A DNA stretch of 64,000 nucleotides. It comes from Bradyrhizobium yuanmingense (GTDB taxonomy: Bacteria; Pseudomonadota; Alphaproteobacteria; Rhizobiales; Xanthobacteraceae). The notes under the pieces are model-generated. The model saw only the letters and a program-made list of their open reading frames with translations. It was not told the origin of the DNA and did not search any database. This document shows positions 61,552 to 64,000 of the stretch, piece by piece. A program made the translations under genes and the position numbers. Position 1 is the first letter of the stretch. Each line of letters opens with the position of its first letter. The stretch is taken from assembly GCF_900094575.1 (NCBI RefSeq), contig NZ_FMAE01000008.1, forward strand, positions 1-64,000, in the 5' to 3' direction.

Positions 61552-63099
61552 ATGAATGTACGGGATGAGCACACGTGGTCCCTCTGGATGGACGTATCTG
61601 TCGCCGAAGCTCCGGTGCTGTCGCGCACGGTCGGCGTGGACGTTGCCGTGGTCGGCTCCGGAATAGCCGGGCTTTCGGTCGCATATGAACTTGCTTGCCA
61701 TGGACGTTCGGTTGCAGTCATCGATCGCGGCCGCATCGGCAGCGGGATGACGGCGCGCACCACGGCGCATCTGGCGACCGCACTTGATGATGGTTACGAT
61801 GCGCTCGCGCGAGTCCGCGGCCCTGACTGTGCGCGGCGTTACTATCAGAGCGTCGCTGCCGCGATCGATCGCGTCGAGGCCATCCAAGGCGCCGAGCACA
61901 TCGATTGCGGTTTTAAGCGCGTCGATGGCTACTGGGTACTGGCATCCGGAACGTCCGCATCCGAGCTGGATAGTGAATTGGATTGCTGTCGCAAGCTGCA
62001 GATTCCTGTCGAAAATTGCATTAATCCGACACCATTCCATGACAGGGGTCAGACGCGTTCGCTGCGCTTTCCGCGCCAGGCGCGCCTGCATCCGACTAAA
62101 TATCTCGCCGGTCTGGCGAGCGCACTGCAGCGCCGGGGCGCCCAGCTCTATGCTGACACCTGCGTCGAGAGCATCCAGCAACGCCAGGGTAGCATGGTCG
62201 TCACCACCGCCTCAGGCTACGAGGTTCACGCCGCCGACGTGGTGGTTGCGACCAACTCGCCCGTCAATGTTCAGGTGGCGATCCACACCAAGCAGGCGCC
62301 TTACCGCACTTATGCACTCGCCGCGAAGATTGCGGCCGGCGCCGTGGAGGATGCGCTCTATTGGGACACGCTCGATCCTTATCATTATGTCCGCCTCCAC
62401 CCGTTATCTGCCGACGAGGACATCGTGATCATCGGCGGCGAAGATCACAAGTCGGGTGAGGCGAATGATGGCGCACAGCGCCTTGACGCGCTTGAGCGCT
62501 GGGCGCGCGAGCGATTGCCGGATTTGCGCGAGGTCACCCATCGGTGGTCGGGTCAGGTGTTGGAGCCGGTCGATTTCGCCGGCTTCATCGGCCGCAGCCC
62601 CGGCGAGGAGCATGTATTCGTTGTCAGCGGCGACTCCGGGCAGGGGATCACCAACGGGCTCGTGGCCGGCATGCTGATCGCGGATCTCATCACCAGCGGC
62701 GCAAGTGCCTGGGAGGACGTCTACGCTCCGTCGCGGAAGATTCAAAGGAACATCGGCGAGTTCATCAGCGAGAACATCACCCCTATCAAGAATTTCGCGG
62801 AGTATCTCACCGCAAGTGAAATCGCGAGCGCTGAACAACTGCGGCCCGGCGAGGGGCGCCTCTTCCGAAGCGGCCTGAAGAAGATCGCGGCGTGCCGGGA
62901 CCGAAGCGGACATTTGCATTTGCATTCGGCGAGCTGCACCCATTTGGGCTGCGTCGTGCACTGGAACTCACTCGAACAGTGCTGGGACTGCCCATGTCAC
63001 GGATCGCAGTTTGCACCCGATGGCACCGCGCTCAACGGCCCGGCGGTTTCCCCGCTCGGCGAGGCTGATAAGCCGGCCAATCTTGAAGCGGCAGAATGA
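61552..63099 (+). CDS. FAD-dependent oxidoreductase with C-terminal Rieske domain
   Basis: A 515-residue fusion. Residues about 28-400 are a DadA-like FAD amine/amino-acid oxidase: VVGSGIAGLSVAYELACHG (34-52), the second FAD motif ending GDSGQGITNGLVAGM (about 363-377). Residues about 430-500 are a Rieske 2Fe-2S domain with Cys462/His464 (CTHLGC) and Cys480/His483 (CPCH), spaced canonically. The flavin probably oxidises an amine and passes electrons to the cluster; the substrate is unknown. ATG 61552 with AGGAG upstream; the 5' extension is rejected. Confidence 0.9.
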   Translation: MNVRDEHTWSLWMDVSVAEAPVLSRTVGVDVAVVGSGIAGLSVAYELACHGRSVAVIDRGRIGSGMTARTTAHLATALDDGYDALARVRGPDCARRYYQSVAAAIDRVEAIQGAEHIDCGFKRVDGYWVLASGTSASELDSELDCCRKLQIPVENCINPTPFHDRGQTRSLRFPRQARLHPTKYLAGLASALQRRGAQLYADTCVESIQQRQGSMVVTTASGYEVHAADVVVATNSPVNVQVAIHTKQAPYRTYALAAKIAAGAVEDALYWDTLDPYHYVRLHPLSADEDIVIIGGEDHKSGEANDGAQRLDALERWARERLPDLREVTHRWSGQVLEPVDFAGFIGRSPGEEHVFVVSGDSGQGITNGLVAGMLIADLITSGASAWEDVYAPSRKIQRNIGEFISENITPIKNFAEYLTASEIASAEQLRPGEGRLFRSGLKKIAACRDRSGHLHLHSASCTHLGCVVHWNSLEQCWDCPCHGSQFAPDGTALNGPAVSPLGEADKPANLEAAE

Positions 63100-63249
63100 C
63101 CGGCATCCCTCGGCGTGTTGTGGTCAGGCTTTGAAGGGGTATGCGCTGACGGCTGCAGCTTTTATGTGACGCGTTACGTGTGAATCATGATCGCACGGCG
63201 ATCTGATGTGACTAGTCCTCGCAGGCTGTACAGGCTATATCCTGTCGCC

Positions 63250-63267
63250 TTGTCATCGAACTGTCAT
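63250..63267 (+). promoter_or_regulatory. Candidate PHO box (PhoB site)
   Basis: Two direct repeats, TTGTCAT (63250-63256) and CTGTCAT (63261-63267), are separated by CGAA, exactly 11 bp apart start to start. This matches the PhoB box consensus of CTGTCAT-N4-CTGTCAT repeats. About ten bases downstream, TG-C-TAAAGT (63279-63287) could be an extended -10 element, placing the transcription start near 63292. A third, imperfect CTGTC lies at 63242. Confidence 0.6.
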
Positions 63268-63340
63268 GTTACCGCAAATGCTAAAGTCAGATGCTGCGCC
63301 GGCTCGCAAGACTCCGGGCGCGCCGGAAGCCAATCCTGCT

Positions 63341-64000
63341 GTGAACACCAAGAGAACGCAGCTCCTCACCGGCTTCCCGGGGCAACGCGAGGACGTCAGC
63401 GTGGAACCCGCGACGGTCGAGGAGCGCACTGCCATTGAGCAGACGCCATCGCAGGACGTGACGCCCGCGCCGAGCCCAACCCAGCCCGCATCTCCCGTTG
63501 GCGAAATCGAGCTCAAGCTGCTCGTCGGTGCCGATCGCATGGCGCATTTCGGCGCAGCGCCCGTGATCGCGGCGAACGCACGCAACAAGGGCACGCGCAA
63601 ACGTCTCAAGTCCGTCTACTACGACACGCCCGAGCGGGCGCTTCGTCGTGCCGGCCTGAGCTTGCGCGTCCGCCAGAGCGGCACGCGTTTCGTGCAGACC
63701 GTGAAGACCGAGGTTGCGGACGATCCGTTGCGTCGCGGCGAATGGGAAGCAAGCGTGCCTTCGCTTGCGCCCGATCTCGCTTTGGCGATGCCGTTCATTC
63801 CCGAGCAGATTCGCGAGCGACTCAAAGCGCAGCCGCTCGAAGCGGTGTTCACGGCCGATGTGCATCGTCACACGCGCATCATAGACCTGCCATCCGGCAC
63901 GGTCGAGGTCGCCTGCGACCAGGGCGAGCTGACGGCCGGCGACCGGTCGGTTCCTGTCAGCGAGATCGAGCTGGAGCTGAAGAGCGGCAGCACGAGCGCG
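63341..64000 (+). CDS. CYTH domain protein, 3' end outside window
   Basis: At least 220 codons are visible, running off the right edge. After a Pro/Ala/Gln-rich lead-in of about 55 residues, the CYTH (triphosphate tunnel) domain begins at VGEIELKLLVGADRM, with the ExExK-type start EIELK. KRLKSVYYDTPERALRRAGLSLRVR and RFVQTVKTE follow, typical of inorganic triphosphatases and CYTH-CHAD proteins. If a CHAD domain follows outside the window, it would bind polyphosphate. Start choice: a PHO-box-like site ends at 63267, so the upstream ATGs at 63266 and 63278 fall in the promoter; GTG 63341 with GGAAG upstream is preferred. Confidence 0.78.
   Translation, partial: MNTKRTQLLTGFPGQREDVSVEPATVEERTAIEQTPSQDVTPAPSPTQPASPVGEIELKLLVGADRMAHFGAAPVIAANARNKGTRKRLKSVYYDTPERALRRAGLSLRVRQSGTRFVQTVKTEVADDPLRRGEWEASVPSLAPDLALAMPFIPEQIRERLKAQPLEAVFTADVHRHTRIIDLPSGTVEVACDQGELTAGDRSVPVSEIELELKSGSTSA

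Follow-up and report, generated by a model that had tools for sequence, protein, structure and literature searches.

The gene for a CYTH-CHAD protein that begins near the end of the window (the whole 64,000-nucleotide stretch of Bradyrhizobium yuanmingense DNA analyzed here) is predicted from its sequence to be a member of the PhoB regulon in Bradyrhizobium, through a single PHO box. The half-sites of this box are in phase, the box is conserved at orthologues, and the genome carries both the same motif at pstS and a phoB gene. In the most likely reading, to which we give about an even chance, the gene is a PhoB target repressed from a box that lies between the promoter and the start codon. The sign of regulation, down in phosphate starvation, would then be the opposite of how a PHO box is usually read.

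The box, TGTCATCGAACTGTCAT, occupies positions 63251-63267 of the forward strand and matches TGTCAT-N5-TGTCAT exactly, with two half-sites (63251-63256 and 63262-63267) in 11-bp phase around the spacer CGAAC. A PhoB-type box of TGTCAT direct repeats at this phase had been proposed in a preliminary description of the same DNA, and it is borne out both by the exact match and by the identity of the motif with that at pstS. PHO boxes have been defined as two copies of CTGTCAT with a 4-nt spacer (PMC3131613). This is the sole exact occurrence of the pattern in the 64-kb window, where 0.01 were expected (mean of 100 dinucleotide shuffles), and one of two in the 8.2 Mb genome (108 contigs), in which the reversed control pattern is absent. 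When up to two mismatches were allowed, the window held one match against 1.99 expected from the shuffles, which is no excess, and the significance of the box therefore lies in its exactness and its conservation.

Conservation was assessed in 117 Bradyrhizobium genomes, of which 115 gave some match and 56 had an orthologue (57% identity or above). Reading the DNA upstream of each of these 56 genes showed the box at the same place in every one of them, exactly in 31 and with one, two, or three mismatches in 16, six, and three, respectively. Alignment of 53 of these loci gave zero to three mismatches in 31, 15, 6, and 1 rows; the remaining three (L057, L058, and L059, the last also in a longer form, L251) were read separately and had one, three, and three. 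Mean column identity reached 0.92 for the half-sites and 0.75 for the spacer, compared with 0.48 for the columns that separate the box from the ATG and 0.44 for 47 columns farther upstream (63165-63211). Each locus was aligned by its best box, with preference given to one that has an ATG no more than 23 nt after it, a procedure that favors both box and ATG, but homology at the protein level, which is independent of the anchoring, starts at query residue 1-4 throughout the 30 loci L004-L033. All orthologue counts ignore the kinship among sequences and are to be taken as contrasts rather than tests.

Beyond the genus, a family-level search covered 100 genomes, and the upstream DNA was read at 18 of the loci returned. 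The sole close orthologue among them (L196, 81% identity) carries an exact box. As for the 17 distant loci (at most 41% identity), a match with one mismatch was found at L204, L205, and L206, L211 has a two-mismatch match together with an exact match on the opposite strand, and the other 13 have no match with two or fewer mismatches on either strand. A second clade of CYTH-CHAD genes within Bradyrhizobium (39-42% identity) is represented in 15 genomes among the matches listed. Thirteen of these were read (L060-L072), and a two-mismatch match was found in 12 of them within the stretch read, L071 having none in that stretch. Loci of this clade carry TGTCATGAAACCTTCAT or TGTCATAAAATATTCAT upstream, which resemble the second and third half-sites at pstS. 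L073 (34% identity) also has a two-mismatch match, in a context that looks unrelated.

The gene downstream of the box continues beyond the window, which forms the first part of a 376-kb contig (C32), to position 65035 and would encode 589 amino acids from the ATG at 63266 or 585 from the ATG at 63278. Assignment to the CYTH family, made previously from the letters, is upheld for the window part and, in the full-length protein, by a Pfam CYTH domain above the curated cut-off (2.2e-19, 70.4 bits, cut-off 23.2), which extends from 63503 through the end of the window to about 64072. Reading on to 65035 also recovered the CHAD domain that had been foreseen past 64000, at about 64169-64875 (2.1e-50, 172.3 bits, cut-off 25.6). 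No NCBIfam model matched the protein at 0.001. The tunnel motifs of the CYTH domain (ExExK and the basic and acidic residues) are intact, as EIELK (63503-63517), LRVR (63662-63673), and EIELELK (63962-63982). Among solved structures, the protein matched a CHAD domain (6qv5, 2.4e-35) and Escherichia coli YgiF (5a60, 2.1e-19), a CYTH-CHAD inorganic triphosphatase with the same domain order to which residues 113-286 (589-aa numbering) align; the CHAD half of the Bradyrhizobium protein is matched better by 6qv5. In YgiF, one metal is reported to be bound by glutamates 4, 6, and 162 and a second by glutamate 160, with catalysis also requiring arginine 56 (PMC4641920). In our reading of the alignment, the residues of the three motifs would be equivalent to these. 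By analogy with its family (PMC4641920, PMC10892726), the protein is probably a tripolyphosphatase that also carries a domain for binding polyphosphate. Attachment to polyphosphate granules is described for CHAD domains, and any activity of CHAD proteins beyond this attachment is called unknown in the same source (PMC10892726). The main text of one paper on PhoB binding in E. coli does not mention ygiF (PMC3465305). The upstream neighbor of the gene (61552-63099, forward strand) encodes a DAO-type FAD oxidoreductase fused to a C-terminal Rieske domain.

We conclude from the comparison of orthologues that translation starts at the ATG at 63278, 10 nt past the box. This ATG is present in 53 of the 53 aligned orthologues, at 8-11 nt from the box, whereas the ATG at 63266-63268, which overlaps the second half-site, is intact and in frame in only 33 of the 53 and was rejected as the start. 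A true start downstream of the box had been anticipated, and on this point the preliminary description was right. In the 34 closest orthologues, the second codon specifies leucine in all 34 through five different codons, and codons 3, 4, and 5 each keep their residue (K, S, and D) in 33. Within the five codons that follow the ATG, pairwise single-nucleotide codon differences were synonymous in 961 cases and not in 176, as opposed to 352/795 and 81/1002 in the other two frames of the same stretch. Two further candidates were also rejected, namely a start at the GTG at 63341, which is GTG in two of the 34 close orthologues, and a leaderless mRNA from the ATG at 63278, for which no -10 was seen by eye at the required distance. 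Inspection by eye found no Shine-Dalgarno sequence ahead of the ATG at 63278. In L034 and L036, a stop precedes the CYTH domain in the frame of this ATG, with single-base gaps between the two, which either speaks against this start in those two genomes or reflects sequencing error. The conserved ATG and the mainly synonymous codon variation together identify TGCTAAAGT (63279-63287, forward strand) as coding sequence. Proposed earlier as an extended -10 element, its letters are indeed present, but they belong to conserved codons 1-4 and the promoter role assigned to them is not supported.

A candidate promoter precedes the box. The -10-like hexamer CTATAT (63235-63240, forward strand) is separated from the box by 10 nt in 45 of the 53 rows; its TATA (63236-63239) is found in 50 and absent in three, and the G at 63234 is found in 51. 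The hexamer is identical to the -10 of the Sinorhizobium meliloti promoter consensus CTTGAC-N17-CTATAT (PMC2873474) and also matches the extended -10 GCTATA of Bradyrhizobium japonicum (PMC4842269). Located 17 nt before it is a weak -35-like element, CTAGTC (63212-63217, forward strand; CTnnTC in relatives), with C, T, T, and C in 50, 53, 51, and 50 of the 53 rows and a spacing of 17 nt in 50 rows and 16 in three. It bears a weak resemblance to CTTGAC and may act as part of the promoter. When the 53 rows were scored against TATAAT, the upstream TATA had a mean of 3.60 (at least four of six matches in 42 rows), and the position proposed earlier, 14 nt past the box, had 3.28 (25 rows). The two half-sites themselves scored as high as the upstream TATA, with means of 3.74 and 3.72, and the promoter was therefore assigned on conservation and spacing rather than on score. 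A -10 within the box would likewise be expected to be covered by bound PhoB. We also considered, and rejected, a longer PhoB array in which the TATA would serve as an A/T-rich spacer, since in the half-site that this requires at 63229-63234 the column identities are 0.27-0.58 over the first five positions (63229-63233) and reach 0.93 at 63234 alone. At the distance found at pstS (9 nt past the box), just one of the 53 rows has at least four TATAAT matches (mean 2.25); with an ATG only 8-11 nt past the box, this is not the layout of a canonical PhoB-activated promoter.

The pstS genes of the genus offer a direct comparison. All 28 loci scored (of 30, L137 and L146 having been dropped) have a box with zero to two mismatches, in the same orientation and phase as at the CYTH-CHAD gene. 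GTAAAA or ATAAAA follows 9 nt past the box in 27 of them; across the 28, the ATG lies 77-107 nt past the box, and no TATA occurs 10 nt before it. On the one hand, therefore, the CYTH-CHAD box resembles rhizobial pstS-type boxes in its TGTCAT direct repeats, its 11-bp phase, and its orientation toward the gene. On the other hand, the -10-like hexamer follows the box at pstS, with the start codon far away, and here the TATA precedes the box and the ATG is close. The CYTH-CHAD site is thus the pstS motif in a different place. The gene for PhoB lies near pstS (TIGR02154, above cut-off); the PhoR candidate scored below its own cut-off.

Boxes of this kind also precede other genes. Upstream of ppk1, the box TGTCATCGAAACGTCAT carries one mismatch at each of the 29 loci scored (of 30, L182 having been dropped) and is conserved at 64-75 nt before the query start (reverse strand, G000:C48:529140-529156 in L077; also L165-L194). 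A conserved CTTGAC lies there 17 nt before a CATCAA that abuts the box. At the DUF47-pit operon (PF01865 and PF01384), all 30 genus loci were scored and have a reversed box (reverse strand, L104:2362-2378; also L105-L134), with zero, one, two, and three mismatches in 3, 13, 9, and 5 of them; it overlaps a CTATGA element. In the genome of the window, a box is also found at a pair of genes for a phosphonate transferase (TIGR03308) and phnM, with the ATG 57 nt on. A scan of this genome at two or fewer mismatches returned 230 places against 34 for the reversed control pattern, from which nothing is concluded because the two patterns differ in dinucleotides. At zero or one mismatch there were 17 places (flanks read at all, an ORF translated at 10), and a phosphate or polyphosphate gene adjoins four of them (CYTH-CHAD, phn, pit, and ppk1). 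The other exact box of the genome (C99:7749-7765, L002:1501-1517) precedes a gene for an Orn/Lys/Arg decarboxylase (PF01276).

With the -10-like TATA ahead of the box and the ATG close behind it, the CYTH-CHAD gene departs from the layout of pstS, and its own layout predicts repression rather than induction. As a general rule, transcription starts about 7 nt past the -10 hexamer. A sigma-70 promoter at 63212-63240 would accordingly start the mRNA near 63247; the box would then span about +5 to +21, and the ATG at 63278 would lie at about +32. PhoB, phosphorylated in phosphate starvation, would bind the box and block transcription, since a protein bound between promoter and start codon should hinder it. 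The CYTH-CHAD protein would then be made in plentiful phosphate and turned down in starvation. Induction by phosphate starvation, as first envisaged for this gene, is not supported, as a -10 at the pstS-like distance is missing.

Repression linked to PhoB has a precedent in rhizobia. In S. meliloti, it has been reported in phosphate starvation for orfA-pit, whose box shortly precedes the translation start (PMC3131613), and pit1 ranked with the most strongly repressed genes (PMC8829014). The CYTH-CHAD gene is similar in having a box near the start codon, but it is a different gene, and the orfA-pit box was grouped with boxes that lie farther upstream of start sites (PMC3616915). Because of this grouping, the precedent supports PhoB repression in rhizobia and not the exact geometry proposed here. 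The DUF47-pit box of Bradyrhizobium itself differs from the CYTH-CHAD box in its reversed orientation and in its distance of 42-49 nt to the query start. Caution is also advisable in carrying the sign of regulation over to polyphosphate genes, as Caulobacter ppk1 is reported to be induced in starvation without PhoB (PMC11208175).

Among the alternatives, canonical activation by PhoB is the strongest, and we regard it as unlikely. Here the box would replace the -35, TGCTAAAGT would act as the -10, and translation would begin at a later codon. The motif, orientation, and phase are those of pstS, nearly half of the rows have at least four of six TATAAT matches 14 nt past the box, and most PHO boxes activate (PMC3131613). 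However, the letters of the supposed -10 are conserved codons, and the pstS distance of 9 nt is occupied by a comparable hexamer in the single row mentioned above. In the stretch from codon 5 to the catalytic ExExK, 15 of the 53 rows offer a later ATG in frame, and nine have no ATG, GTG, or TTG at all. In S. meliloti, 16 of 33 genes have boxes that fit activation, which precede the start site by 22-25 nt (PMC3616915), and this spacing applied here would put the start near 63290, within the conserved reading frame.

Two promoters, an arrangement that we hold to be somewhat less probable again, would combine basal transcription from 63212-63240, yielding the full protein, with a PhoB-driven start within the reading frame in starvation, yielding an N-terminally shortened CYTH-CHAD protein in those species that have a later start codon. 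The upstream TATA would fit this arrangement, as would the downstream hexamer in 25 rows and the fact that 44 of the 53 have an ATG, GTG, or TTG at some later point ahead of the catalytic motif. Nevertheless, the rows have no later start codon in common, as the rarity of the GTG at 63341 illustrates, and constraint on this stretch at the protein level would explain the downstream hexamer.

Other response regulators of the OmpR family bind direct repeats in 11-bp phase, and one of these could occupy the box instead of PhoB. We deem this improbable: the motif is the one found before pstS in the genus, and the same genome also has boxes ahead of its phosphonate, Pit, and ppk1 genes. Finally, a chance repeat without function, toward which the lack of excess at two mismatches and the count of four in 17 places adjoining a recognized phosphate or polyphosphate gene might point, is highly implausible against an exact match conserved in 56 of 56 orthologues.

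Our search of titles and abstract openings, chiefly in the openly available literature, found no paper that names this CYTH-CHAD gene as a PhoB target. A genome-wide prediction of PHO boxes in proteobacteria from 2006 reportedly includes Bradyrhizobium, and the CYTH-CHAD box may therefore already be contained in it. More tentatively than repression itself, we propose that in Bradyrhizobium one phosphate signal may govern both sides of polyphosphate metabolism, with conserved PHO boxes at ppk1 (synthesis) and at the CYTH-CHAD gene (short-chain binding and hydrolysis) and with PhoB acting past the promoter of the CYTH-CHAD gene to repress it. A PhoB site on a CHAD gene throughout the genus would link phosphate sensing to the proteins of polyphosphate granules. 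If the predicted sign is true, starvation would shut off a granule-bound triphosphatase.
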